DNA from: Methanoplanus limicola DSM 2279
GTDB taxonomy: Archaea; Halobacteriota; Methanomicrobia; Methanomicrobiales; Methanomicrobiaceae
Assembly (NCBI RefSeq): GCF_000243255.1
Contig: NZ_CM001436.1
Location: forward strand, 2,526,635-2,590,634
DNA: 64,000 nucleotides
Direction of reading: 5' to 3'
Position numbers and translations under genes: made by a program. Shown here piece by piece: positions 42,793 to 59,850 of the stretch. Position 1 is the stretch's first letter, and each line of letters opens with the position of its first letter. The notes beneath the pieces are model-generated. The model was not told the DNA's origin. It saw only the letters and a program-made list of their open reading frames with translations, and ran no database searches.

Positions 42793-43563
42793 TTAACTCC
42801 TTTCCAAACTATGTTCTTTAATTATTTCAATGTATTCAACTACTAACCGTTCACTCATCTCAAGAAGTAGAGATATTTTAGTGGGTTCCATCTTACTATT
42901 ATAGAGCATCTGGACTTTCTTGAATGACTTTATGTATCTGTCACATGCATCCTCGGTGTGATTCATCCTTCTTGAAATATCCGGAGTGGGTACATTTTGC
43001 AGAAACATACGGATAATTTCCTTCTTGTGAGTCAGGGATGGTCCAATATCAAGAACCATTCCACAGTATTTCAGAGTGGTTTTATTCTTCTTCTGATACT
43101 CGTTGATTAAATTTGACACTGTAGCTTTACAGATTCCAAGCAAAAGAGCAATATCTGATTGAGTTAGTACTGCTTCCTGCTCGTAAGCCTCATTGATGAT
43201 TCTTACAATTCTCCCAACTCTGACCTCTTTTGCTGAGAATCCATCATTCTTCATTTTGATATCATCTTCATGAACTATTGAAAGTATAACTGGCACTTTC
43301 TTAATGTCAGCTGAACTTTTTGCAGGCCCTGGTTTTTCAAACCGACTTCTGGCAAACCACATTATCTGTCCAACTTCAAGGCTCCAGGGATCATGTGAAT
43401 AATCCTTTACTGTTTTGATCACATCCTCAGTGATCATATTTAGGACACGATCTCCTCCAATGAAGGCATATTCGTCACGAAACAACCTTTTCATTGAATT
43501 TTCCAATCCGATAGTTTTGATATTTTGATTCTGTACTGAGCCTTTCCTGCACGATAAACTCAT
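42793..43563 (-). CDS. DUF1670 protein (copy B)
   Basis: 256 residues. Core from RVGRIVRIINEAYEQEAVLTQSDIALLLGI (helix-turn-helix-like) through LDIGPSLTHKKEIIRMFLQ to ISRRMNHTEDACDRYIKSFKKV and LEMSERLVVEYIEI, the DUF1670 pattern shared with the gene before it. Predicted to bind DNA through two helix-turn-helix units; function unknown, often found near mobile DNA. It overlaps the upstream gene by 4 bases, so the two are co-translated paralogues. Confidence 0.75.
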   Translation of the reverse strand: MSLSCRKGSVQNQNIKTIGLENSMKRLFRDEYAFIGGDRVLNMITEDVIKTVKDYSHDPWSLEVGQIMWFARSRFEKPGPAKSSADIKKVPVILSIVHEDDIKMKNDGFSAKEVRVGRIVRIINEAYEQEAVLTQSDIALLLGICKATVSNLINEYQKKNKTTLKYCGMVLDIGPSLTHKKEIIRMFLQNVPTPDISRRMNHTEDACDRYIKSFKKVQMLYNSKMEPTKISLLLEMSERLVVEYIEIIKEHSLERS

Positions 43564-44432
43564 ACCCCCACCCCCCCTTTTTTCTTCTGGAATTCAATCT
43601 GGATAGGTTCCATTATCTGAGAAATTCGTTCTCTACCAATGTCCTCATATTTGTTGTACAGCTCAAGATATTCTGAAACAACTTTCTCAGACAGATCAGT
43701 TAATTCACGGATTTCTACAGGAGAATAGCCTGACCTATGGAGGAATAGAACTTTTGAAAAGGCTTTGATGTATCTCTTTATTGCATCACCGGTATGATGA
43801 GTTCTAAGTTCTATGTCTGTGTACTCATATCCCTTGAGATATAGTTCAACAATCTGAGTCTTATGGGATATTGTTGGACCTATGTCCTGAATCGCCCCTC
43901 GTGTAGGGATTGTGATTCCTTCTTCCTTTAGCTCCTTTATATCTCTTCTAATACTCCTGACACTGGTCGTAAGCAACAGAGCGAGATCTTCCTGAACCAA
44001 TAATCCGCCCTGATCATATGCTTCATTTGTTAGCCTGACTATCCGGTGTTTTCTCAACCCACTTGGACCACACTCTCTTAAAACTCTTTCATCCTCAGTG
44101 TCAAAAACAGTAAGACTAACAGAAACCTTTCTGAGTTCATCTAACGATTTACCTGGTGGTTCATTAGCACTAACGGGATGATAAACGACCTGGTAATCTT
44201 TCCTAAGATTACCATAGTTCTCATCAATGTGTTCGCGCATCAGATGAACAAGTGATCTGCTTAATGCCTTAGAGAAGCCGTAATCCTCTTTCAGATCAAT
44301 CAGCAACTTCTTTTCATTGGTCTTCTGCCAAGCAGATTTCAAATATTTGACGTCATCTCCGGATTTAGGCACCAAAATACACCACATTAGTATTGCTATG
44401 AAGTGCCTTAAGTATGAGGACATATGTCCCAA
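43560..44432 (-). CDS. DUF1670 protein (copy A)
   Basis: 290 residues from the first ATG; GTG codons near 44375 are possible true starts, since the first 20 residues look unlike the family. RIVRLTNEAYDQGGLLVQEDLALLLTTSVRSIRRDIKEL is a helix-turn-helix, followed by QDIGPTISHKTQIVELYLKG, ELRTHHTGDAIKRYIKAF and LTDLSEKVVSEYLELY. It shares this whole core with copy B. A heteromer is plausible. No transposase is adjacent. Confidence 0.75.
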   Translation of the reverse strand: MGHMSSYLRHFIAILMWCILVPKSGDDVKYLKSAWQKTNEKKLLIDLKEDYGFSKALSRSLVHLMREHIDENYGNLRKDYQVVYHPVSANEPPGKSLDELRKVSVSLTVFDTEDERVLRECGPSGLRKHRIVRLTNEAYDQGGLLVQEDLALLLTTSVRSIRRDIKELKEEGITIPTRGAIQDIGPTISHKTQIVELYLKGYEYTDIELRTHHTGDAIKRYIKAFSKVLFLHRSGYSPVEIRELTDLSEKVVSEYLELYNKYEDIGRERISQIMEPIQIEFQKKKGGVGV

Positions 44433-44444
44433 ATGTAACTACGC

Positions 44445-44648
44445 AAAAAATGATGTTTCACAATTATAGATTAAAGCTTTTAAACCCGACAGAAGGCCTT
44501 CAGGAGCTAAAAAAGAGATAACTCCCCTGAATGATCCAAAATAACATTTCTAATCCAAAAAATTATACTTCCACAGCGGAATTACAGCAACTTTCCGGTT
44601 ATCAAAATCAAACTCATCATCCTGGTCAAATGTCAGGATTACTCCGGA
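44445..44648. repeat. 204-base direct repeat, left copy
   Basis: Nearly the same as 45453-45656 on the same strand. It carries the last 25 codons of the PIN gene and, on the other strand, the last 30 or so codons of the DUF4143 ATPase gene, both cut off from their bodies here. The unit was therefore copied from the right side. Confidence 0.85.
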
Positions 44649-44728
44649 CTAATAAGATAACCTTAAAATTTACACTTCTCCACGCAGCCAAAACGACTAT
44701 CAGGTAAAAGAACATAGAGAATATAATC

Positions 44729-44863
44729 ATGACTGCCGAAGCAAAAAAGCGAATTCACAATCCTGTAACCGGCAAGTACTATGAGGTTCGCCAAAAATCA
44801 AGCAAATATGGAAAGAAAGGTCAGATTAAAGGATTGTGGAGTTCTGCCAAAAACAGAAGCTGA
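44729..44863 (+). CDS. Small basic protein, possible antitoxin
   Basis: 44 residues: MTAEAKKRIHNPVTGKYYEV, then RQKSSKYGKKGQIKGLWSS, then AKNRS. Very basic. Its ATG stands behind ATATAATC. The sequence RxxSSKYGKKGQIKGLW recurs in archaea as a tiny gene before PIN-domain toxins, and here a PIN gene starts about 15 bases later behind AAAGGAG. I infer an antitoxin; the partner is broken. Confidence 0.6.
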   Translation: MTAEAKKRIHNPVTGKYYEVRQKSSKYGKKGQIKGLWSSAKNRS

Positions 44864-44877
44864 AAGGAGAGATATTT

Positions 44878-45529
44878 TATTCAGCCGAAAATATGGTTTA
44901 TTGATACAAATATAATTGCACACTGGATTTTAGGAAGCGGCGGAATCATTAAAAATCTCTGTTTTTCAAATGATTTATCCGAAGAATTCGCAGATGCTTA
45001 TCAGGAGATATAAACCGGCAATCAATCTTATTGATGAAATATTTTAAAAAGGAAACCGGATTTTAAGGATGAATTTTATTTTACATCTATTGCATCAAAC
45101 GAGCTTTTTTCCGCAATCCGGGATGAAATAAGAAGCATTATATTTTTTAAAAACGGAATTCCAATCTCAAGATGGCGCGATTCAAGAAACAATCCTGAGA
45201 TTCCTGAAGAAATTTATCTTGAAACATACAGAATAACTCTTGAATCCTTTGATGTACTATTTAAAAATCATGGAATAACAATAATTCCCGAAGTATCTCC
45301 ATGCGATGAAGATCAATACTGGAGCATATTATCTTCAATATTATTTCTGGTTAGTAATTCAAAAACACAGGATTCAAAGATACTAACGACTGCGATTCTT
45401 AATTGTGCTGATTATTTTATTACTCTGGACAGTCCTCTTATAAAATCCGCCAAAAAAATGATGTTTGACAATTATAAATTAAAGCTTTTAAACCCGACAG
45501 AAGGCCTTCATGAGCTAAAAAAGAGATAA
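44878..45529 (+). pseudogene. PIN-domain toxin, disrupted
   Basis: Begins KIWFIDTNIIAHWILG (first Asp) without an ATG, and stops at a TAA near 45013. After another frame break near 45055 the sequence runs open as DFKDEFYFTSIASNELFSAI (Glu), NSKTQDSKILTTAIL (Asp), YFITLDSPLIKSA (Asp) and ends NPTEGLHELKKR at 45529. All four PIN acidic positions are recognisable over three pieces. It is an inactive ribonuclease of the VapC type with its antitoxin-like gene still open. Confidence 0.75.
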
Positions 45530-45656
45530 ATCCCCAGAATTATCCAAAATAATATTTCTAATCCAAAAAATTATACTTCCACAGCGGAATTACAGCAACT
45601 TTCCGGTTGTCAAAATCAAACTCATCATCCTGGCCAAACGTCAGGATTACCCCGGA
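45453..45656. repeat. 204-base direct repeat, right copy
   Basis: The source copy: it runs from the PIN gene end through the 28-base gap into the 3' end of the convergent ATPase gene. See the left copy at 44445-44648. Recombination between the two would delete the toxin-antitoxin locus. Confidence 0.85.
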
Positions 45657-46868
45657 ATCAAGACCATATTTATCCATTGCCTCGATAAGACCATCTGTTT
45701 CCCGTTTGAAGTTGTCGTCATTTAATTCATAGCATACCTGAAATGCTTTTGTGATCCTGACACCTTCTTTTACCACAAAATCGCATTCATCCTTATCCTT
45801 ATGATAATATAATTCATACCCTCTTCTCCGGAGTTCAATGAATACCAGATTTTCAAGTAACGAGCCTTTGTTTCCTGAAAACTGAAATGAAGCATGTGTG
45901 ATGAAACCATTGTCCACACAATAGACTTTTTTAGGATTTCTCTGCTGTTTTTTCAGTGAATAATCAAATTTATTCAGAACAAAGATGAAGTACGCATCCT
46001 CAAGAGCATTGACAATGGATATAACCGTATTTGGTGCAACCCCAAACAACTCACCAATTTTGTTAAAGGAGGTCTCATTTCCGATATTGGAGAGCATATA
46101 TGTAATAATATTCTTAACCACTCCCTCATCCCGGATTTTATTCCGGACTAAGATGTCCCTGTAGATGATGTCATTTAATAGTGCCTGCAATATCCTCTCA
46201 TCCTTCCGGAGCACATACTCCGGAAAACCCCCGCCACTAAGATACTTCTCAAACTCCGCTGAATTTCTTTCCTTCTCTTTAGCCCGGCAAAATTCATCAA
46301 AATCAAACGGAAAAAGTTCATATCTGATATTCCTGCCCGTTAATCTTGTTCCAGGTTCACTGCTCATCAGGGTTGCATTTGAACCTGTGATGAATACCTT
46401 TTTGCCTGAATCAAGCAGTGACCGGACATATATCTCCCAGCCTTTTACATTCTGTATCTCATCTAAAAAGTAGATTTCAGACAGTCCCAGCTCTTTTAGG
46501 AAGATATCCTCAAGCTTCTCAAAATCCTTCAGCTCAAAGGATGCCAGACGGATATCCTCAAAATGGATATAATATACCGGTTTTTTCCCGGAAAGATACT
46601 GCCTTAAGAGTGTGGACTTGCCACATCTCCGGATGCCTGTGACAATCGTGGCAAAATTCTTCAGTGGTTCTATGGTGCAGCTCCTCTTAACCCCGGAATT
46701 TTGGTATAACTGCTGATGCTGCCGGAATTGTCCGTTTTGTCTTTTCTGTCCGTTCTGTATACTCTGTAGATTTTGTTTATACTGTATATTCTGTAAGAGA
46801 ATAATTCCCTTTAACTTTGCCTTTTCCATCATGTTCAACAGTTTTGTATTTGATAGCGACATTGCCAA
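45558..46868 (-). CDS. AAA ATPase with DUF4143 domain
   Basis: 436 residues. VTGIRRCGKSTLLRQYL is the P-loop (about residue 75), IYFLDEIQNVKGWE the Walker B, FITGSNATLMSSEPGTRLTGR the sensor region. DUF4143 follows (about 220-435), with a nuclease-like block KDECDFVVKEG near the end. The first 60 residues are Gln/Asn-rich, with repeated QN (KQNLQSIQNGQKRQNGQF), and not part of the family. ATG at 46868 or 46862. Such ATPases are common in archaea, are often in accessory regions, and their role is unclear. Confidence 0.85.
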   Translation of the reverse strand: MAMSLSNTKLLNMMEKAKLKGIILLQNIQYKQNLQSIQNGQKRQNGQFRQHQQLYQNSGVKRSCTIEPLKNFATIVTGIRRCGKSTLLRQYLSGKKPVYYIHFEDIRLASFELKDFEKLEDIFLKELGLSEIYFLDEIQNVKGWEIYVRSLLDSGKKVFITGSNATLMSSEPGTRLTGRNIRYELFPFDFDEFCRAKEKERNSAEFEKYLSGGGFPEYVLRKDERILQALLNDIIYRDILVRNKIRDEGVVKNIITYMLSNIGNETSFNKIGELFGVAPNTVISIVNALEDAYFIFVLNKFDYSLKKQQRNPKKVYCVDNGFITHASFQFSGNKGSLLENLVFIELRRRGYELYYHKDKDECDFVVKEGVRITKAFQVCYELNDDNFKRETDGLIEAMDKYGLDSGVILTFGQDDEFDFDNRKVAVIPLWKYNFLD

Positions 46869-47358: not shown

Positions 47359-48987
47359 TTGATTGTGGAATTTGCATATGACAATAAAGAACCTGGTAAT
47401 CAAGTAAAAGTATATGCTAAAGAATTAAAAAAGATCAGAACTGAATCAAGCAGTGAGAAAAGTAAACAGTACACATGTCCTTATTGTGGGGAATATGTTA
47501 AATATTATCATGGAAAAATACAGGAAGCACATTTCAGACACATAAGAGGTTCTTTAATCGCGAAAACATGCGACAAATATGTATCCGGAAATGGAATTGG
47601 CACCTCTAAGGACAGATATCTGTTAGATCAAAAACTGTTAGGATTTCCATTATATATTCGTAAACTTGGAGAAAATTTCAGGTTATTTATTGGGCTTTCA
47701 CCTGTACCAGAAAGCACAATAAATGATGATATAGAATCATCACAGGAAATAATAATTAAGGATCCTAATTATGTACAATTCGATCAAATATATCTCGAGG
47801 ATCTGATAGTTGATGAAATAACATACAAACCTCTGGATTATCTTTACGAAACCTATCATATTGAATACCGCCACAATCCCAATCCGCTTACAAGTAAATA
47901 CGGATGTTTTAAAGAAATTTATGGAATCGAACCGAAAGGCGCCCTCTTTTTTTGCAGCGATATGTTCTCAAGACGTATTGCATTTAACGGAAAAATTACA
48001 ACAGATACATATTACTACTTAGTTATACCCTCAGCAGAAATATTATCCAATAAAAAATTTCTGAGTATTGAATCCTGTAACATATTAGCAGTTAAATCTG
48101 ATTTGCCTGAAGAATGGTTTGTATATAAGATCAAATTTACTGAAATAACTAATGAATCTTCTGAATTTGCAAGAGACTTAAATCTGACTCTGGTTGAAAA
48201 ACCACAAAAATTAACGCCACTGTGGCCTCCACATGTCCAATATGGTAACCAACATATTTACAAAAAAGACTGCCATGCCCATTATCTGTTAGAGTCCCAA
48301 AAATCAGTTGAGAAAGATAAATCTTCAAAAGAAATATTACAACATAAAATTTTAATAAAAATTATTACATTAAACGCACATTTGGACATTCTAAATGTAG
48401 AAGTTAATAAAAATGAAACAAAAATCCCCTTAGAAGAGGATAATACTCAATTTAATCCCGTTACTTCCTGCAAGCCTTCACTTAATATTCCTCCTTATTC
48501 TCCCCCAACAATAGCGATACAGTACGGTAAAAAAGAACTCCAGAATCACGAAGAATTACAAACCACAAAAAACTCCACAATATCCTGCAAATCCAATTAT
48601 AAATGCAGTTTTTGCCATATCCGGAATAATTACCTAAAGACATTGATTACCAATAAATTAACGATACCTCAAATATCAGATATTAAGCCAGGCGATACAT
48701 TCCTCGTCCTCCATGGCCTGGATATTATAAGCAGGATACACTTTCCTCAAAAAAACGAAAAACAATCCAATGAAATAAAAAAAAGTGATAATCAGATGTA
48801 TCAAACTCTTATTCAGCTAAAAGGACAGCAGATAACGACTCCGATAATCCTAAAATATGCATTACAAGACCCCGATGAATATCCCAAAGTTAAATCATAT
48901 ATTCTAAACTCTCTTCGCATAGGTGAAATTCCAAAGCCAGCTTATGACTATATAATTAACAACATTAAAGGAGGAATCTTTAAATGA
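47359..48987 (+). CDS. CoiA-like zinc-finger protein, first gene of the putative defence operon
   Basis: 542 residues from TTG; a GTG two codons on is the alternative. At 40-61 YTCPYCGEYVKYYHG and AHFRH form a CxxC...HxxH zinc site like the start of competence protein CoiA and related nucleases. A second Cys group appears late (CKSNYKCSFC, about 410-420). The middle has no recognised catalytic motif. AT-rich like its partners and overlapping the next gene by ATGA. It may recognise nucleic acid; this is inference. Confidence 0.6.
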   Translation: MIVEFAYDNKEPGNQVKVYAKELKKIRTESSSEKSKQYTCPYCGEYVKYYHGKIQEAHFRHIRGSLIAKTCDKYVSGNGIGTSKDRYLLDQKLLGFPLYIRKLGENFRLFIGLSPVPESTINDDIESSQEIIIKDPNYVQFDQIYLEDLIVDEITYKPLDYLYETYHIEYRHNPNPLTSKYGCFKEIYGIEPKGALFFCSDMFSRRIAFNGKITTDTYYYLVIPSAEILSNKKFLSIESCNILAVKSDLPEEWFVYKIKFTEITNESSEFARDLNLTLVEKPQKLTPLWPPHVQYGNQHIYKKDCHAHYLLESQKSVEKDKSSKEILQHKILIKIITLNAHLDILNVEVNKNETKIPLEEDNTQFNPVTSCKPSLNIPPYSPPTIAIQYGKKELQNHEELQTTKNSTISCKSNYKCSFCHIRNNYLKTLITNKLTIPQISDIKPGDTFLVLHGLDIISRIHFPQKNEKQSNEIKKSDNQMYQTLIQLKGQQITTPIILKYALQDPDEYPKVKSYILNSLRIGEIPKPAYDYIINNIKGGIFK

Positions 48988-51149
48988 ATAACGAAAATTA
49001 CTCATTATGTCTAACTATAATCGAACAGAATAATTATTCTCAATTGCTTAGACTTGCAGATCCCATTGGAAAAGATGGACAAACACTATGGAAATTAGAC
49101 GGGAAAAGCCATAAACTTGATCTTCCGAATATCAAAACAATCAGTATGGATCGGTATCAGGCAAAAAATAACGATTTAGCCATATGGAAATGGGAATTAA
49201 ATCCAGAAGATCAAAAAAAGCAACTGTCAAACCGTACGAATGAAAAGTTTTACGAATTAATATTTTTAGATGATGAAAATATTGACAGCAAGGATGAAAT
49301 AAAAACACGTAAACTTGAAGATCTTATCGATATCCTGATATCAGGATTTAAAATTCCTGAATTCATAACTGATAATTTACTATTAGTCTTTGATAAATCT
49401 AAAAGAGATGGATATATTTGTTTTGATCTTAAAAAATCAGACTACAGTATAGAAAATAATACAATGAAAATTAAGGAGGGTACAACTCTTGAAATTCATA
49501 AAATTCGAGAAGAACTCTGTATTGATACTGATAATTACATCAAAAATGCTACAATAAAAAATTACTATGCTCAAAGGAGGATAATTTACAGAGAGAGAAA
49601 ACTTAAAAAACCTGATGGGCAGTTAAAAATAAAAAGTTTTATCTCTCTCTTCAAAAGTTACTTTGAGGAGATTACTGAAAAGATGAATTATGATGATGAA
49701 CAAAGAAATATTATTAAAAAAACAATATCCAATGCCTTAGATAACAGAGAAGATATTGAAGCATTTTTTAAATTAACCGGTTCAGACAATGAAGAATTTA
49801 TTTTTACCCATAATACAACAAGTAAATTTGAAGAAACTGCTCAGATTATTAAAAAATATGCATCCGATAAAGGGATGAAAAACTTTCTTGAAAGTGTAAT
49901 TGAAAATACTCCGGAATTTAAAGAATATTATCTTGATATATTAAAAGAAGACTATCTGACTGACGAAAAAGAAAAAGCTGAGCAGGAGTTGAAAATTCTT
50001 GAAGAAAAGAAGACTGATCTTCAAAATATCTTTAATAAAAAAGAAAAAGATCTTAATAACGAGCTTAAATCTTTAGAATTAAAAAAAGCTGAAATTACCA
50101 ATGAATATAGGAAAAAAGAAGAAAAAATCACTGAATACAACAACAAAATAAGCAATTTAGAAAATAGAAATGAACAACTCAACAAATATTGTGAAGAAAA
50201 AGTTGAGTCCATTAAAGAGAATACAGGTGCCCTATTAGGTGAAATTGCTGTACTAAAAGGCATCACTCAGAATTCTGCAACTCCAATTCAGGACTATAAT
50301 CTAACTAAGAACTGTTCTAAATCATTTGAAGGAGACAATATATATTCCATAACCAATAAAGAAGATCTTATAGGTGGACTGGAAAAAAATCTTGACAGCA
50401 TCTTAATTCCGGATGAATATAACTCAGGTGAATTAGCCAGATTTATTATTGGCTCTTACCTTTCTAAAACACCTGTTCTCCTAATAGGAAACACATCCCA
50501 GCTTCTGGCTGAAACTATATCCATAACATTCTGTGGCAGAACTTCTGAAATTATCTTTGTTCCTACAGGTTTTAGAAATTATGATGAGTTACTTAACTCC
50601 GTCAGGTCAAGTGAAAGTAATGTAGTATTTATTAAAAATGCAGTTGGATTCTGTGATGAATATATCTACCTCAATCTGATTAAGGATAATCCGGATAAAT
50701 TTCTTCTTTTTTCAGCAGAATTCCAGGATACTATAAGGATACTTCCGGCAGGAATCCTGGGATACATGAGCCTCATTGACTGTGAAAAAATAATACTGCC
50801 TTTTAATTTGAATGAAATTTATGATGATCTAACCCCTGCAAAAATTGAAGAAATGAGCAATGCAGAGTATAATAAAAATCAATATATGAAACTCTACAAA
50901 GAAATATGTGAGCTTTCAGAAGAATCAGGGTTAAAAAACGGCTATAACCTTTTAAGGGCTAAAATTCTCTCAACACTTTTAGGTCCTGAAAAAGAGGAAA
51001 ACAAATCTCTTATCAATATCCTTCTTCCTGAACTGGTTACATACAATCAGATTCAGGAAAACACAGATAATTACCTCGACTATTTACAAACCTTAGATAA
51101 AACAGAGTATTACAAAATAGCAGAAAAACTGTCCGGTGGGGAAAGATAA
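48984..51149 (+). CDS. Coiled-coil protein with a degenerate ATPase-like region
   Basis: 721 residues, ATG behind AAAGGAGGAATC. A helical N-terminal half, a strong coiled coil at about 330-425 (runs of Lys/Glu/Leu heptads), then a region at about 470-620 shaped like an AAA+ core. PVLLIGNTSQLLAETIS stands where a P-loop would be but lacks the GK[ST], and VVFIKNAVGF where Walker B would be. It could be an inactive ATPase acting as scaffold or sensor. No family recognised. Second gene of the operon. Confidence 0.6.
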   Translation: MNNENYSLCLTIIEQNNYSQLLRLADPIGKDGQTLWKLDGKSHKLDLPNIKTISMDRYQAKNNDLAIWKWELNPEDQKKQLSNRTNEKFYELIFLDDENIDSKDEIKTRKLEDLIDILISGFKIPEFITDNLLLVFDKSKRDGYICFDLKKSDYSIENNTMKIKEGTTLEIHKIREELCIDTDNYIKNATIKNYYAQRRIIYRERKLKKPDGQLKIKSFISLFKSYFEEITEKMNYDDEQRNIIKKTISNALDNREDIEAFFKLTGSDNEEFIFTHNTTSKFEETAQIIKKYASDKGMKNFLESVIENTPEFKEYYLDILKEDYLTDEKEKAEQELKILEEKKTDLQNIFNKKEKDLNNELKSLELKKAEITNEYRKKEEKITEYNNKISNLENRNEQLNKYCEEKVESIKENTGALLGEIAVLKGITQNSATPIQDYNLTKNCSKSFEGDNIYSITNKEDLIGGLEKNLDSILIPDEYNSGELARFIIGSYLSKTPVLLIGNTSQLLAETISITFCGRTSEIIFVPTGFRNYDELLNSVRSSESNVVFIKNAVGFCDEYIYLNLIKDNPDKFLLFSAEFQDTIRILPAGILGYMSLIDCEKIILPFNLNEIYDDLTPAKIEEMSNAEYNKNQYMKLYKEICELSEESGLKNGYNLLRAKILSTLLGPEKEENKSLINILLPELVTYNQIQENTDNYLDYLQTLDKTEYYKIAEKLSGGER

Positions 51150-51150
51150 G

Positions 51151-52182
51151 ATGAAAACGGGCATCCATTCAAAAATGGCTGAAGAAATGAAGATAATCCC
51201 CTTCCCAGAAGAAAACGAAGACAGATTTATAGCCCGTGTCATATATTCCGCCCTTTCAGAATGGATAAAAGCGTCAACATTTGACAGGAAAATTGATGAC
51301 CAGGAAGGCGTTACAGAAGATGGCTGCACAAAGCACCACATTACAAGGAAATGCGGAGATATTCTCAAAGGTTTTCTCGAAATATATCCACAGATAGAAG
51401 ACTATTTTTATCCGGAAGATGAAAAAGATCCAAAACCAATTCAGGAAATTCAGAAGAGACTATTTTCAGCAGGGGTATTAGTCTCAGGGATAAATAATAC
51501 TGTTCAGTTATCCCAGAAAAAATATGGATTTGTTACTGATAATCTTTATTTCGAGCGTGGTAACTTCCCTGAAACTGGCAATCAAATATCAGGTCTTGGA
51601 AGTTATATCAATAGGGTTCCTGAAAACTCTTCTACCCAACAATTAGAAGAACTATTCTTCATACCTGATGAAAACGCTGAATCTACCTTTTACAACTTCA
51701 ATAAAAGAATGAAAGGAAAATATACTCCTCTGTCAGAAATTCCGGAAAACTGGAGATTTTTTGACTTTAATTCTAAGAAAAGTTTTTATAAATCATGGAT
51801 ACCCTATTTTGATGAGACAAATAAAATTACAGCATATAAAAACAGTAACAACATTTTAGATTATGGAATTATCAAAAACAATAACGGAACTCTCTCATCG
51901 ATAACATTTCCAAATCATATTGTTGATACAAAAGAGGTCAGAAGATTTCTATACGGCATTAGATCAGCAGAAGGCAATCCCTGTAAGGCCAAATTAACAT
52001 TAATGGGCAAGTCAGTGAATATTGAATTTTATACATCTCTTCCTCAAAGAGAACAAACATTGTTGAACATGATTGCCTGGCCTGTTCGTAGCATGTATGA
52101 CAGAACACAATATACAGCACCTATTGTATTTCTGCCAATAATAAAAAAAATGTTTAAAAATTTGAATGTGGATATAGGGTGA
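51151..52182 (+). CDS. Unrecognised 343-residue protein of the defence operon
   Basis: Starts at the ATG directly after the previous stop (TAAGATG), with GGTGGGGAAAG upstream. Soluble, mixed helix and strand, no membrane helix, no tight Cys or catalytic motif visible. Its stop is 7 bases from the helicase start, so all four genes are one operon. Its constant place between coiled-coil protein and helicase suggests a specific subunit. Function unknown. Confidence 0.6.
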   Translation: MKTGIHSKMAEEMKIIPFPEENEDRFIARVIYSALSEWIKASTFDRKIDDQEGVTEDGCTKHHITRKCGDILKGFLEIYPQIEDYFYPEDEKDPKPIQEIQKRLFSAGVLVSGINNTVQLSQKKYGFVTDNLYFERGNFPETGNQISGLGSYINRVPENSSTQQLEELFFIPDENAESTFYNFNKRMKGKYTPLSEIPENWRFFDFNSKKSFYKSWIPYFDETNKITAYKNSNNILDYGIIKNNNGTLSSITFPNHIVDTKEVRRFLYGIRSAEGNPCKAKLTLMGKSVNIEFYTSLPQREQTLLNMIAWPVRSMYDRTQYTAPIVFLPIIKKMFKNLNVDIG

Positions 52183-52189
52183 TCAATGA

Positions 52190-55100
52190 ATGACAGACGC
52201 TTACGGAATTCAGAATACTCATAAAGAACTTGTTAATAAGCTAAAAAATTACATCCAGTCACAGTATTTTGGACTAAATAATCTGCTTCTTGAAGCAGGA
52301 GATGAACTTTTAGAAAGAGACAATACCATATATCAGGATCCATATATTGAATCAAATCCTTCATATCAGATTATCAGGAATGGTTTATTATCTGCAAAAA
52401 TACCGGAAAACATACGGGATATCCTTCACAGGATGAGTGAACAAAATCTTGGAGTTTTTGATAGTCCGTATGCCCATCAGATAGAGGCATTAGAGTCATT
52501 CTTTCAGGGAAAAGATGTTATGGTTACAACCGGAACCGGTTCAGGTAAGACTGAATGTTTCATGTGGCCAATTCTCGCAAGCCTTGCAGATGAAGCAAAA
52601 AAGAATCCTCAATCCTGGGAAAAAAGAGGGATCAGAGCATTATTACTTTACCCAATGAACGCCCTTGTATCCGATCAGATTGGTCGCCTGCGCAAAATGA
52701 TCGGAGATCAGGATGGCAAATTCCATTCCATATTTTCAGAATATACAAATAATCCAGACATCCGTTACCCACAGTTTGGGATGTACACCGGCAGAACCCC
52801 TTATCCCGGCGACCTGGTCAAAAGTAAAGACAAGGACCTTGCAAAAACAATGGAAAAAGATCTTCTTAATCCGGAAACTGATTTTATCAATGAATTAAAG
52901 AAGATCGGTAGGTATCCTGCAAAGAGAGATCTGGAAGGATTCATTGACAATTTAAAACAGGGAATTCATTCTACAGAACCAGAAGACGCTGAACTTATCA
53001 CCAGATGGGAAATGCAGAATAACTGCCCGGATATACTGGTTACAAACTATACAATGCTTCAGTTTATGCTGATCCGTGATATAGAAAAGCCAATCTGGGA
53101 GAGGACACGGGAATGGCTGAATGCATCTCCGGAAAATAAACTCCTGATTGTTATTGATGAAGCCCATATGTATCATGGATCCCCCGGAGGTGAAGTTGCA
53201 CTACTCCTCCGGCGTCTGATGTACAAATTAGGAATTAAAAGAGATAAAATCAGGTTTGTCCTCACCAGTGCAAGCATTCCGGTAAAATCAAGTGAAGATA
53301 AAGGAGCTATTCAGAACTTCATTAATGATTTAACAGTCAATAGCCCTGAAAATGAAAATTACTCAGTCATTACAGGCAAGCATAAAGAAATCTCATTAGA
53401 AGGCACTGCTAAATTCAAAGCAAACAAAATTTCAGATATATCTGTTGATAACTTCCTGAAAGATGAAGAAACAAGAATTTCAGAGATTAAAAAATATTTC
53501 AAGGCTTTAAATAAAAATATTCCGGACTTTACATATAACGAACTGGAAAATTATCTGTTCGAAAAACTTCCGGAATTTGCCCCGGTTCAGCGACTCATAA
53601 AGTCAACATCCGGAAAAGCAACCAATGTCAAAGAACTTGCAAAAATTGTCTTTCCTGATGATCCTGAAGATACAGCCAACTATGCAATTCAGGTATTACT
53701 GGCTATTATGCCTCTTGCAAAGAGTAAGGAAGGTCAGGTATTATTTCCGGCACGTCTGCATATGTTCTTTAGGGGTCTTGATGGGCTTTTTGCATGTACA
53801 AATCCGGATTGCCCAAATAAGCATTCAGGAGATGGAATAACTCTTGGACAATTATATACTGACAGTAGCAGAGAGGTCTGTTCCTGCGGTGGAAAAATAT
53901 ATGAATTAGTCAATGACCGTCGATGTGGAGCCATATTCATCAAAGGATACATGAGCAACAATGTATCAGCTGACGGAAATGATATCTGGAGATATCCCGG
54001 AGAAAAGTATTATCATGATATGAAAGAGGTTCACTTTTATATTGTTCCGGAAAAATACAGGCTTAAATCAAACAAATTATCAAAGGGTTGGTTAAATTCA
54101 AAAACAGGAGTTTTTACATCCAGCAATCCAAACAATGAAAATGGATTTTTAAAAGTCCTTTATTCACATACTGAAATAAAAAATAAGCCAGGGCAATTGA
54201 CCTTCACAACCTGTCCAAAATGCAATAAATTACTTGGTAGTCGTTCCTTATCTGATTTTTCAACAAAAGGAAATGAACCGTTCTATAATATTGTTGCATC
54301 GCAACTTCATATTCAGCCACCAACAATATTTGACAGAGAAAAACTTGAACGGCAACCAAATGAAGGGAGAAAGGTTTTACTCTTCTCAGACAGCAGACAA
54401 AAAGCTGCTGTTCTTGCAAAGGATATGACAAGATCAGCAGATGATGAGGCTGCCAGATCAGCAATTGTTCTTGCAGGATATAACCTTCAGAAGTGGTCTG
54501 AAAAGTATAATGAAAAGATAACATTAGAGATGTTATATCCGGCATTTCTTGAAATTGCAGGCATCAACCATTTAAGACTGTTCTATGGTGGAGATAGGGA
54601 CAAATTCAATAGAGATATTGAAAATATCAAAAAGGACATTAACCAGGCAAAACGAAGAAATAAAACACTAAAATATCATAACTTAGCTGAAAAACTACGG
54701 AATCCACCAGGATTATATTCTGAACAGTTGTTGAAAAACCTATGTTCATCATATAGATCTCTTGTAGATCTTGGACTCTGCTGGTTAATTCCAAGTAATC
54801 TGGAAGATATTGAAGACTCCATTGACGAATTAGCAGAAGAGAGCATCAACATTTCTGAAGAAGACTTTACTGCTCTTTTTTCTGCATGGGCTTATTACCT
54901 TTGCACAGATAAATATGCACTTGGAGAGAGTATTTCCAATAAAGTAAGAGATAATGTTTTTCTCTATTCTTACGGTCGTTTTGGAGTTGAAAATAAAGAC
55001 ATAAATAAAATGCCCCCTTTCCTCAAAAAAATTCTTAATTCACAGGGATATAATGAGGAAAAAATCTTATTAATCCAAAAGAACCTTCATCATAATTTTC

Positions 55101-57481
55101 TTAGAACAGGAAGCGAAGAGCAGGAATCAAATTTTCTGCTTCTCAACAAAATCTCACTGAAGTTTGATGATAATCATGAGTGGTTCCGCTGCAAAAAATG
55201 CTCTGGTATTTTTCCATATACTCTGTGGGGTCACTGCGCAAGATGTGGTGAAAAGTCAATAGAAAAGATAGCTGATTTTGAAAGATACAGATTCTGGAGA
55301 GAGCCTATATTAAAGGCGCTTGATGAAGGTACCGGAAGGGAAATAAAAACAATAAATTCAGAGGAACATACGGCTCAGTTGTCACATAAAGATCAACGCC
55401 AAAAAACATGGTCCAAAACTGAAAATTATGAAATGAGATTCCAGAATATTTTATTTGAAGAGGAGTTTCCAATTGATGTTCTGAGCTGTACAACGACAAT
55501 GGAAGTAGGGATCGATATTGGTTCACTTACTGCAATAAGTCTTAGAAATGTTCCACCTATGAGAGAAAATTATCAGCAAAGAGCTGGTCGTGCAGGCAGA
55601 AGGGGTTCTTCAGTTTCAACAATAGTAACATATGCACAGAACGGACCCCATGATGGCTGGTATTTTAACAATCCTGAGGAAATAATCTCCGGGAAAACAC
55701 GCCTACCCTGGATTGATGTAAATAACAAAAAACTAAATAAAAGACACCTGAATTTAGTGATTTTAAATGATTTCCTGAGCCTTCAGGAAACCAACCTTGC
55801 AGAATGTGACACCGCAGAATTTTACAACAATTATTATAATGCCTTTCTGGATTACCTTAATAATTATAGATTCAGGCAGGACTTTATAGATACAATGCTC
55901 TCTGAGAATTACAATAACAATGCCCCCATTGATGAATTCAGAAGAGATCTTATAGATAACTTAAAAGAGATCAGAAAATCTGTACTTAAAAACCCTGAAA
56001 GATATACATCAAATGAAAGTGAAAAATTCACACTTCTCGATCACCTTAATTCAGAAGGAATACTCCCAACATATTCTTTTCCACAGAACGTTGTTGGATT
56101 TTATATCGAAGATAAAAATGGAGAAATTGATCAAAAACCGGAGCGTTCACTTGATATTGCAATAAGTGAATATGCACCCGGTAAAATACTTGTCGTAGAT
56201 AAGAAAACATACAAGGTCGGAGGTATTTACAGCCACCATTCTAAATTTAAAGAGGGTTTTTATGAAAAACAGGCGAAACCCTATTTTGAAGATCCTAACT
56301 ACCTTTTTGAATTATATCAATGTGAAAATTCTGAATGTGGATGGACATCAATAGAGATACCACCAAATAATCAATGTCCTTTCTGCAAATCAAAAATAAT
56401 TTCAGACCATAAAATGTTAAGACCATGGGGTTTTGCTCCGGTAAATGGTACAAGTATTCCGGAATCATGGGCAGAGGTTGAATATTCATATGCCGAAGAA
56501 CCATGTTATTTTGCAGAACCGGTTCATAACGACCTGAAAAATACTGGATTTCCACATATACAGGCAGCAAACCGTTCAGATAAAATAACTATTATTAATA
56601 AAGGAATTAAGGGACTTGGATTTAATGTTTGCAGAGAATGTGGCGCAGCTGAAGTTGCACAAACTTCCGAACCCTCCCTTAAAGGAATAGGAAGACCATA
56701 TGTTCCCCGTTCAAAAAACAGATATCCATGCTACCATTATAATAGTTCCAATATTGAAAATGTATTTCTCGGTCATACTTTCAACACTGATATGGTCATC
56801 TTTGAATTTGATCTTGATAAAAATAAGATAAACACTGATTACAACGGACTATGGATCAAAAATGCTGCAGTTACTTTAACCGAGGCCATGCTTATGGCAG
56901 CAAGCAGAAGTCTTGACATAGAATATTCTGAGCTTAAGGCAGGATACAGAATTCACAGTAATAATGAAAATGTGTTTGTGGACATTTATATTTATGACAG
57001 TTTATCAAGCGGTGCCGGATATTCTTCAGAGTTATTAAATATAACTGAACTAATTTTTGAAAATACAAAAGAAACTCTAAATTGTCCATCTAATTGTGAA
57101 TCTGCCTGCCATAACTGTTTAAAACACTACTGGAATAAATACCGTCAGGACAAATTAGACCGATATGCAGCTCTCGATTTACTTAACTGGGGAATGTACA
57201 ATAAACTCCCTGAAGATATTACAAAAGAAGAACAGATTAAAATTCTAAAACCTTTAGAAGAGAGATTAAAAAGTTTTGACTCAGCCATTCATCTTATTAA
57301 TGATAAAAATGAGATATTTATTTCAAATGCCAGTATTAAAAAGAAAATCATTGTATATCCTGCTATGTACAATCTCCCAAACAGAAGAGATACAATTTAC
57401 CTGTCCGATAAAATGGTTAAAAGAGCGTTACCCGTAGCATACAAAATTATCAAAAAATATTTTTCCAATAATAATCCCTGA
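52190..57481 (+). CDS. Giant DEAH helicase with C-terminal DUF1998 (DruE-like)
   Basis: 1763 residues, ATG behind GGTGATC. Superfamily-2 motifs: TGTGSGKTE at 114-122, YPMNALVSDQ, VIDEAHMYH near 322, LTSASIP, LFSDSRQKAAVL, TTTMEVGIDIGSL, QRAGRAGRRG near 1128. A large insert lies between the two RecA domains (about 480-700) with Cys pairs; further Cys pairs occur at CKKC...CARC and CENSEC...CPFC. The C-terminal DUF1998 (about 1555-1670) ends LNCPSNCESACHNCLKHY. This size and order are those of DruE of Druantia and of related defence helicases. The three companions do not match the Druantia proteins I know. Confidence 0.85.
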   Translation: MTDAYGIQNTHKELVNKLKNYIQSQYFGLNNLLLEAGDELLERDNTIYQDPYIESNPSYQIIRNGLLSAKIPENIRDILHRMSEQNLGVFDSPYAHQIEALESFFQGKDVMVTTGTGSGKTECFMWPILASLADEAKKNPQSWEKRGIRALLLYPMNALVSDQIGRLRKMIGDQDGKFHSIFSEYTNNPDIRYPQFGMYTGRTPYPGDLVKSKDKDLAKTMEKDLLNPETDFINELKKIGRYPAKRDLEGFIDNLKQGIHSTEPEDAELITRWEMQNNCPDILVTNYTMLQFMLIRDIEKPIWERTREWLNASPENKLLIVIDEAHMYHGSPGGEVALLLRRLMYKLGIKRDKIRFVLTSASIPVKSSEDKGAIQNFINDLTVNSPENENYSVITGKHKEISLEGTAKFKANKISDISVDNFLKDEETRISEIKKYFKALNKNIPDFTYNELENYLFEKLPEFAPVQRLIKSTSGKATNVKELAKIVFPDDPEDTANYAIQVLLAIMPLAKSKEGQVLFPARLHMFFRGLDGLFACTNPDCPNKHSGDGITLGQLYTDSSREVCSCGGKIYELVNDRRCGAIFIKGYMSNNVSADGNDIWRYPGEKYYHDMKEVHFYIVPEKYRLKSNKLSKGWLNSKTGVFTSSNPNNENGFLKVLYSHTEIKNKPGQLTFTTCPKCNKLLGSRSLSDFSTKGNEPFYNIVASQLHIQPPTIFDREKLERQPNEGRKVLLFSDSRQKAAVLAKDMTRSADDEAARSAIVLAGYNLQKWSEKYNEKITLEMLYPAFLEIAGINHLRLFYGGDRDKFNRDIENIKKDINQAKRRNKTLKYHNLAEKLRNPPGLYSEQLLKNLCSSYRSLVDLGLCWLIPSNLEDIEDSIDELAEESINISEEDFTALFSAWAYYLCTDKYALGESISNKVRDNVFLYSYGRFGVENKDINKMPPFLKKILNSQGYNEEKILLIQKNLHHNFLRTGSEEQESNFLLLNKISLKFDDNHEWFRCKKCSGIFPYTLWGHCARCGEKSIEKIADFERYRFWREPILKALDEGTGREIKTINSEEHTAQLSHKDQRQKTWSKTENYEMRFQNILFEEEFPIDVLSCTTTMEVGIDIGSLTAISLRNVPPMRENYQQRAGRAGRRGSSVSTIVTYAQNGPHDGWYFNNPEEIISGKTRLPWIDVNNKKLNKRHLNLVILNDFLSLQETNLAECDTAEFYNNYYNAFLDYLNNYRFRQDFIDTMLSENYNNNAPIDEFRRDLIDNLKEIRKSVLKNPERYTSNESEKFTLLDHLNSEGILPTYSFPQNVVGFYIEDKNGEIDQKPERSLDIAISEYAPGKILVVDKKTYKVGGIYSHHSKFKEGFYEKQAKPYFEDPNYLFELYQCENSECGWTSIEIPPNNQCPFCKSKIISDHKMLRPWGFAPVNGTSIPESWAEVEYSYAEEPCYFAEPVHNDLKNTGFPHIQAANRSDKITIINKGIKGLGFNVCRECGAAEVAQTSEPSLKGIGRPYVPRSKNRYPCYHYNSSNIENVFLGHTFNTDMVIFEFDLDKNKINTDYNGLWIKNAAVTLTEAMLMAASRSLDIEYSELKAGYRIHSNNENVFVDIYIYDSLSSGAGYSSELLNITELIFENTKETLNCPSNCESACHNCLKHYWNKYRQDKLDRYAALDLLNWGMYNKLPEDITKEEQIKILKPLEERLKSFDSAIHLINDKNEIFISNASIKKKIIVYPAMYNLPNRRDTIYLSDKMVKRALPVAYKIIKKYFSNNNP

Positions 57482-57711: not shown

Positions 57712-59850
57712 TTAATATCTCCGGCAGAAATGCTTCATAATATACTCACCCGTATGCTTTGGCGACAGCTCAACCGAGGCTGAATCCTCCCGGATATAAA
57801 AAATCTCCTCACTGCCACCATCCGGACTGTCCCTTAAAACGACATAAAAAGGAACATCATCAGACTTAAAGACCTGAATCCAGCATAATATCTCTCCTTT
57901 CACCTCATGAAAATCTATAGCAAAATAACGGCTGAAATGGTTCTTCACATCCTTTGGATAGATCATCTTATTGATGACATCATCAACGATTTTTCTCCGG
58001 TAGCCGTCCGTATTGCGGCTCCGGAGTTTTGAAAACTCACTCTCAATGCCGACAATATTAAGTGAATCATCCTCCGGATTCTCCTTAACTCCGATAATAA
58101 GATTCCCGCCATTACTATTCAGAAAAGAGACAATATTCCTTGCAATCTTAAACTTAGAATAACCACGCCCAAGCCACCCGAATCTGTTATCATCAACATA
58201 ATTCTCCGGGTTCTCACTCCAGAACGCACTCGTCTTAAATTCAGCAACTCCCCTCTCACCGGAATCAATAATATCCAGCAGATTCTGAAGTTTCTTCGGC
58301 TTAACCTCCATCTCCGGTCTTAAAGAACGGCTGAAATGAATATTACTTATACTGCGGGAATAGTCCAGATTCAAAATCTCCTCATCACTCCTGGCAAAGA
58401 TCACATCATTAACAAACTCACCAAAAAACTTCAGTGCCTTATCCCCTTCAGCCCATTCATGATAGCAGTGTAAAATCTCAGCCCCCGTCTCCTTCTCAAC
58501 ATATTCCCAGTCAATGCTCCGGTGATAACTCCCGATATCACAGTCTGTAAAATCAAAGATAAGCTTAACACCCCTTACAGTGATATAATCTGCCAGAATC
58601 TTTGAAAGCGTCTTATTCTTCGTCCACTGCCAGTAAGCCGCATTGTCATTCCCAAACTGGCAGCTGTAATTCTGGACATACTCAAAAGGACTTAAAAGAC
58701 CGTAACATGCAGATATTATCAGAAGATGTTTATCCGAATGTAAAAGCCTCCCTCTTCCCTCATCATCAAGCCCGTCATAGAAATCACCGTTATACCTGAA
58801 GATTGCCGGAAGATACTCCCCGCTCTCATCTCCGCCGGAAAAATCAGGACCGTATCTTAAATCACGGTTATTGATGATCTCATTCTCAAAATTATCCCAC
58901 ACAATCTTATTACTCCTTATCTTCCCGTAGATCTCAGCCCTGTTCTCCATAATAAGCCTTACAGACTCAGGCCCGACACCGCTGTCAGCAAACGAAAATT
59001 CCGGAGAATAACCTGACTTCTCTCCATCAGAAGATTTATGGAAGGAATCAACAGTGAGAATCAGGACAGGACCTTCCGGCTTATAATCAGAGTAATTCAG
59101 GTCGTACTCCTCATCCGGAAAAACAACATCAGTAAGCGGACTGAGGACAATCCCGTTAATCTGGGCATAGAATATCGCCTTCTCAACATCCGCCGCTCTC
59201 CAGCCAGAACCGGTCTTCTCATTCAGAAAGGACGAATAATCACGGCAGAACTCAGTCAGGCCCTTATAGGCATTGTAATTGCTTATCGCGTCATCCTCAC
59301 CCGAACCGCTCACAACTCCAGAACGGAAAACGAAATCAGGCCTGCCGGAATAACCAAACCTCTTCTTATTGCTGTTCCACCACCTGCCTGTATGCCGGTC
59401 AGTCATCGGATAATTATCCGGATCATAAAACGAAAGAAAAGTGACCGGAATCGCAAAACCACTGTCAAAACCCGACAGGCGCCTCATCTCAAAGAAATTT
59501 CCGACTGTAAAATCCCCGGCCAGTCTCTTAAGGGAATGTGCAAATTTATTCCAGGTAACAGGATCAGAAAACCTCCCAAGTATCCGGGATGTAAGACTCT
59601 CCCTTCTGTCATTGCTGTAATAATTCTTCCAGAAGCAGACCTCACCGGAAACTGCAAAATTCGCAGCTCCGGGCCTGTTAACTGCCGACCGGAACTTCTC
59701 TTCAAAATCAGGAAGATTTTTGGGAGTTATAACATCAGTAAAATAGCCTTCATATTCCTGTGAACCGCTGAAATCAGAGAGATTCACATTCCAGATGAAT
59801 TCAGACGCAGCTTTTGCCCACCCGTCAGCCGCCTGAACATTACCCGCCAT
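57712..59850 (-). CDS. Fusion of a YaaA-like region and an AlbA/Schlafen domain
   Basis: 712 residues. The first 250 or so are unassigned (a block YPMTDRHTGRWW resembles part of a helix-hairpin-helix glycosylase-like fold, weakly). Residues about 355-470 (KHLLIISACYGLLSPFEYVQ, YEHK-like region, DFTDCDIGSYH) resemble YaaA, a DNA-binding fold. From about 530 comes an AlbA_2 domain: GERGVAEFKTSAFWSEN, IVSFLNSNGGNLIIGVKE, YPKDVKNHFSRYFAIDF. Such fusions are typical of defence genes. It lies 230 bases from the helicase, on the opposite strand. Confidence 0.65.
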   Translation of the reverse strand: MAGNVQAADGWAKAASEFIWNVNLSDFSGSQEYEGYFTDVITPKNLPDFEEKFRSAVNRPGAANFAVSGEVCFWKNYYSNDRRESLTSRILGRFSDPVTWNKFAHSLKRLAGDFTVGNFFEMRRLSGFDSGFAIPVTFLSFYDPDNYPMTDRHTGRWWNSNKKRFGYSGRPDFVFRSGVVSGSGEDDAISNYNAYKGLTEFCRDYSSFLNEKTGSGWRAADVEKAIFYAQINGIVLSPLTDVVFPDEEYDLNYSDYKPEGPVLILTVDSFHKSSDGEKSGYSPEFSFADSGVGPESVRLIMENRAEIYGKIRSNKIVWDNFENEIINNRDLRYGPDFSGGDESGEYLPAIFRYNGDFYDGLDDEGRGRLLHSDKHLLIISACYGLLSPFEYVQNYSCQFGNDNAAYWQWTKNKTLSKILADYITVRGVKLIFDFTDCDIGSYHRSIDWEYVEKETGAEILHCYHEWAEGDKALKFFGEFVNDVIFARSDEEILNLDYSRSISNIHFSRSLRPEMEVKPKKLQNLLDIIDSGERGVAEFKTSAFWSENPENYVDDNRFGWLGRGYSKFKIARNIVSFLNSNGGNLIIGVKENPEDDSLNIVGIESEFSKLRSRNTDGYRRKIVDDVINKMIYPKDVKNHFSRYFAIDFHEVKGEILCWIQVFKSDDVPFYVVLRDSPDGGSEEIFYIREDSASVELSPKHTGEYIMKHFCRRY

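Follow-up and report, generated by a model that had tools for sequence, protein, structure and literature searches.

The four-gene operon of Methanoplanus limicola DSM 2279 examined in this study, which lies within a 64,000-nucleotide stretch of the genome (hereafter, the window), is very probably a DruA-less Druantia type I operon, druBCDE, with a putative antiviral role. From the nucleotide sequence, the original prediction had recognized the operon as one with a DruE-type helicase and a probable role in defence, and this reading was supported. The further claim that the operon is a candidate new defence system was not upheld, as all four encoded proteins corresponded to known Druantia type I proteins, namely DruB, DruC, DruD, and DruE.

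Four intact open reading frames, all on the forward strand, were located at 47359–48987, 48984–51149 (druC), 51136–52182 (druD), and 52190–57481 (druE). The druB/druC, druC/druD, and druD/druE junctions measured −4, −14, and +7 bases, respectively, in line with one operon of B-C-D-E order and with the tight spacing originally described. The reported AT-richness was also confirmed, the G+C content being 34.0% in druBCDE versus 41.9% across the remaining window. Meanwhile, the start of druB was reassigned from the TTG at 47359 to a GTG at 47365, since the alignment of close homologues to DruB begins at this codon and a GGGG sequence is found 8 bases upstream of it; druB thus most likely spans 47365–48987 on the forward strand and encodes 540 amino acids. 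In a comparison with the related copy L023, the differences fell mainly at third codon positions and internal stops were absent, which fits the pattern expected from purifying selection.

Among the PADLOC profiles, DruE1 matched the helicase over its whole length (2046 bits, residues 2–1758), and the other DruE classes scored 662 (DruE2), 608 (DruE3), and 600 bits (DruE4). DruD1 likewise covered the whole length of the third protein (E = 1e-26, residues 12–347). The matches of the first two proteins were weak, with DruB1 (E = 4.6e-7) restricted to residues 28–80 over the zinc motif and DruC1 (E = 1.1e-7) to residues 283–532. Neither the Druantia II/IV partners DruM, DruF, DruG, and DruL nor the type III partner DruH gave a PADLOC match among the four proteins; types II/IV and III were thus ruled out by these unmatched partners together with the DruE1 score of 2046 bits against at most 662. 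In Pfam and NCBIfam, no model for DruB, DruC, or DruD exceeded the cut-off, which explains why the companions had looked unknown.

Because the B and C matches were weak, the archaeal proteins of BCDE-only loci were compared, profile against profile, with the Druantia I proteins of E. coli and P. putida; the single-sequence similarity of DruB and DruC to the canonical proteins was weak as well. Each protein matched its own canonical counterpart, with E-values of 6.3e-8 over 255 columns (DruB), 1.1e-7 over 311 columns (DruC), 2.3e-5 over 289 columns (DruD), and 1.1e-217 over 1676 columns (DruE), whereas the off-diagonal pairs gave 0.05–0.9 and the column-shuffled controls no better than 0.04; as each of these values derives from a single comparison without database calibration, the weight is carried by the contrast between the one-to-one diagonal, which alone matched, and the off-diagonal pairs. 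By these comparisons, the companions are the Druantia I proteins DruB, DruC, and DruD, and their genes follow the canonical order. They had been described as unlike known Druantia proteins; in the profile comparison, each of them matched its Druantia I counterpart only. A match of the companions to a known type had been named beforehand as the first result that would refute the original prediction, and this result was obtained.

The presence of a 1763-residue DEAH-DUF1998 helicase was verified, as the 1763-amino-acid product of druE, an SF2 helicase of the YprA family, contains both DEAD/DEAH and DUF1998 (MZB) regions. Its Walker A motif GTGSGKT (52532–52552), DEAH box (53156–53167), and motif VI QRAGRAGR (55577–55600), all on the forward strand, were kept in 32 of the 32 aligned DruE proteins. 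The MrfA zinc-binding (DUF1998) domain at 56879–57121 on the same strand (Pfam MZB, E = 1.3e-10, residues 1564–1644) retained its cysteines. Aligned end to end with E. coli DruE, the protein showed approximately 34% identity. A nuclease at the C-terminus of DruE was considered and rejected, as the aligned tail contained no conserved acidic/lysine motif. This lack of nuclease-like residues agrees with the published description of the type I DruE C-terminus as an "inactivated Vsr" (PMC12458937), and no nuclease was recognized in any of the four proteins.

DruB was shown to combine beta-rich domains with a CxxC-H-C zinc motif (C40, C43, H61, and C71; 47476–47571, forward strand) that was conserved without change in all 13 DruB proteins, that of P. 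putida among them. The original description of a CoiA-like zinc protein was sustained, with the Pfam CoiA_N match (residues 32–64, E = 1.4e-4) lying below the curated cut-off. Since a fold search against the PDB returned only low-probability immunoglobulin-like matches, no fold is claimed for DruB. A nuclease was rejected here too, its invariant residues being the zinc ligands and aromatic, glycine, and proline residues, with no acidic/lysine catalytic set. DruC had been described as a coiled-coil protein with a degenerate ATPase core, and the coiled coil and the lack of a P-loop were both confirmed. The AlphaFold2 model (mean pLDDT 74.6) placed a long coiled-coil helix of 88 residues at 325–412 (49956–50219, forward strand). 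For the C-terminal core at residues 459–716 (50358–51131, forward strand), Foldseek retrieved a magnesium-chelatase ATPase at a probability of 0.99 (E = 0.011) and BrxL at a probability of 0.94 (E = 0.013), and the P-loop GxxxxGK[S/T] was absent from the DruC alignment. As these structural neighbours were found at E values of about 0.01, the assignment of a P-loop-less AAA+-like core is suggestive rather than proven. A PDB sequence search with DruC gave no meaningful match. In addition, the M. limicola DruC has a beta domain at its N-terminus for which the P. putida protein has no counterpart. No relatives of DruD were found in viral contigs.

Druantia type I has been described as a five-gene system including DruA (PMC7251935, PMC13316683), and the main text of a survey of YprA helicases does not mention DruA (PMC12458937). 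DruABCDE was found in E. coli NZ_CP022393.1 (L076) and on the P. putida plasmid NZ_AP015030.1 (L025). The M. limicola operon shares B, C, D, and E with these loci in the same order and differs from them in that DruA (PF14236/DUF4338) was detected neither beside it nor, by a six-frame PF14236 search, anywhere in the genome (3.2 Mb, single contig, 99% completeness). The same search gave DruA in none of 23 genomes carrying BCDE, several of which are draft assemblies, and all five DruA-bearing plasmid records searched alongside as positive controls gave a PF14236 signal. A DruA/DUF4338 gene adjoining or near the helicase was present in Natrialbaceae, Haloplanus, Nitrosococcus, Leisingera, and Meiothermus records. 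Fusion of DruA to the large DruC seen in certain bacteria was rejected on the negative six-frame search, and so was a replacement fifth gene, as the clustered flanking reading frames shared no family across unrelated loci. Since one defining feature of the five-gene type I is missing, we call the locus a DruA-less variant rather than a plain member. This absence, which the original prediction did not state, is the one unusual feature of the operon.

In total, 23 genomes carried the DruA-less block, at 24 loci; they belonged to Methanomicrobiales-type archaea and to gut bacteria of the Lachnospirales. The gene order was constant and the overlaps were mostly similar. Besides M. limicola, the archaeal carriers comprised ten Methanomicrobiales-type genomes and a Methanofollis MAG, with Methanogenium and Methanofollis as the named relatives; the Lachnospirales contributed 12 loci in 11 genomes, which have the same block without DruA and differ in their bacterial hosts and in B, C, and D proteins only about 15–22% identical to those of M. 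limicola. Co-occurrence as a unit, proposed as a check on the original prediction, was thus observed: beyond M. limicola, 22 genomes carry the block, at 23 loci, indicating that the four genes are not a chance grouping. At L062, the druB position holds a gene that the druB profile used did not recognize. One Lachnospirales genome harbored two DruA-less loci (L064 and L072), the latter with an extra DruB-like gene downstream of druE.

A FastTree phylogeny was built from 32 DruE proteins. In it, all 24 DruA-less loci grouped in one clade with a support of 1.0, within which the Lachnospirales loci (L014, L063, L069, and others) appeared as sister lineages, and the seven sampled DruA-bearing loci fell outside. 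A single loss of DruA is the simplest history on this tree, in which a single sequence served as the outgroup and few loci outside the clade were sampled, most of them from plasmids. Within the order of M. limicola, Methanomicrobiales, DruD matches were obtained in 12 of 232 genomes, and the distribution is therefore patchy. At six loci, the G+C content of the operon lay 7–20 points below that of its flanks, which suggests horizontal spread, and the operon was probably gained horizontally.

These results bear on the other explanations of the locus. DruA may be required for activity, in which case the BCDE loci would be defective or doing something else, and the absence of one of the five type I genes (PMC7251935, PMC13316683) would suit a decaying Druantia I locus that lost DruA and its function, as would two bacterial copies that look split (L066 in druD and L067 in druC). 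We nevertheless regard such decay as very improbable, because all four genes are open in M. limicola with the third-position bias noted above, the DruA-less loci make up an old clade spanning two domains of life, and intact persistence in 23 genomes is not expected of a decaying locus. A role of the operon in DNA repair or genome maintenance, without antiviral function, would be in keeping with the DNA-repair-related helicases that make up one of the main branches of the YprA family (PMC12458937); this explanation is very unlikely given that the helicase is a DruE1 protein grouping with DruA-bearing Druantia, and given the patchy distribution and the AT-richness of the operon relative to its surroundings. 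A distinct new system pairing a DruE-like helicase with unrelated partners, for which the missing Pfam/NCBIfam models and the partial DruB and DruC coverage in PADLOC could speak, is largely refuted by the exclusive, order-preserving matches to the canonical counterparts and the whole-length fit of DruD to DruD1, and is highly improbable.

The DruA-less Druantia I operon was further compared with other systems. DISARM, ARMADA, and Dpd are likewise built around YprA-family helicases (PMC12458937); in contrast to these systems, no methyltransferase, BrxHII helicase, 7-deazaguanine, or separate nuclease gene was found among the four genes. The haloarchaeal plasmid loci L026 and L027 resemble the operon in being archaeal with a type I-like DruE, but a divergently encoded DruA homologue adjoins them and, by sequence, the two genes preceding druE can barely be recognized as B, C, or D. 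These two loci also share an FtsK-like gene and two unknown genes near the divergent DruA and the DruE1-type helicase, and may represent another Druantia I-like form.

With regard to the neighbourhood, the predicted YaaA/AlbA fusion was confirmed as a 712-amino-acid protein with YaaA-like and Schlafen AlbA_2 domains, encoded next to the operon on the opposite strand (57712–59850); it had no PADLOC match, and none of the other BCDE loci was flanked by a relative. On the other side, the 3′ end of an AAA/DUF4143 ATPase gene (45558–46868, reverse strand) was apparently duplicated at approximately 44.5 kb (44480–45600), and inspection by eye suggested a broken PIN/VapC-type toxin gene at approximately 44.9–45.5 kb between the two 3′-end copies. 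Two adjoining DUF1670 proteins with helix-turn-helix matches, possibly a tandem duplication, were encoded at 42793–44432 on the reverse strand. A type I restriction HsdR-like gene lay alongside the L023 copy and a RhuM-family gene alongside L012 (Pfam match on the L014 relative; PADLOC candidate family PDC-S05), and no recognized defence neighbours were detected at the other BCDE copies among those scanned.

Two further YprA-type helicases were encoded elsewhere in the M. limicola genome. The second DruE-family helicase (1970 amino acids; L077:8479–14391, approximately 414.5–420.4 kb of the genome) matched DruE2/DruE4 of types II/IV over its whole length at approximately 1670–1710 bits, with no PADLOC match in the two adjacent reading frames scanned for partners. 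The third (1782 amino acids), which fits no single DruE class well, was found with a type IIG/DrmMI-like methyltransferase of 1691 amino acids and an unknown protein of 401 amino acids (L078:872–12615, approximately 425.9–437.6 kb); this region is possibly an ARMADA- or DISARM-like locus.

The druBCDE operon most likely works like Druantia type I. Based on the subunit anatomy and on work showing that type III DruE engages ssDNA-containing infection or replication intermediates (PMC13192584), DruE would act as an ATP-driven translocase engaging viral DNA, DruC would serve as an oligomerizing or bridging partner that scaffolds DruE rather than as a motor, and DruB and DruD would supply recognition and assembly, such that, without DruA, the four proteins might jointly block viral DNA or dismantle it. 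Beyond the DruE motifs, we infer this mechanism from the anatomy. It is conceivable, at somewhat below an even chance in our estimation, that BCDE constitutes a complete and separately evolving Druantia subtype, shared by archaea and Clostridia, in which defence requires neither DruA nor apparent DruE nuclease activity and proceeds through DNA translocation and a P-loop-less AAA+-like DruC.

In the literature on Druantia and YprA helicases, we found no statement of a split between the BCDE core and DruA, and no report on Druantia with Methanoplanus was found. PADLOC DruB1 and DruD1 fitted the DruA-less Lachnospirales locus L063 at more than 500 bits; the curated family thus probably already includes DruA-less loci, and the surprise is accordingly modest. 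A clade that consistently lacks DruA separates the BCDE core from DruA, and it thereby makes the role of DruA directly testable and provides a four-gene system to reconstruct.
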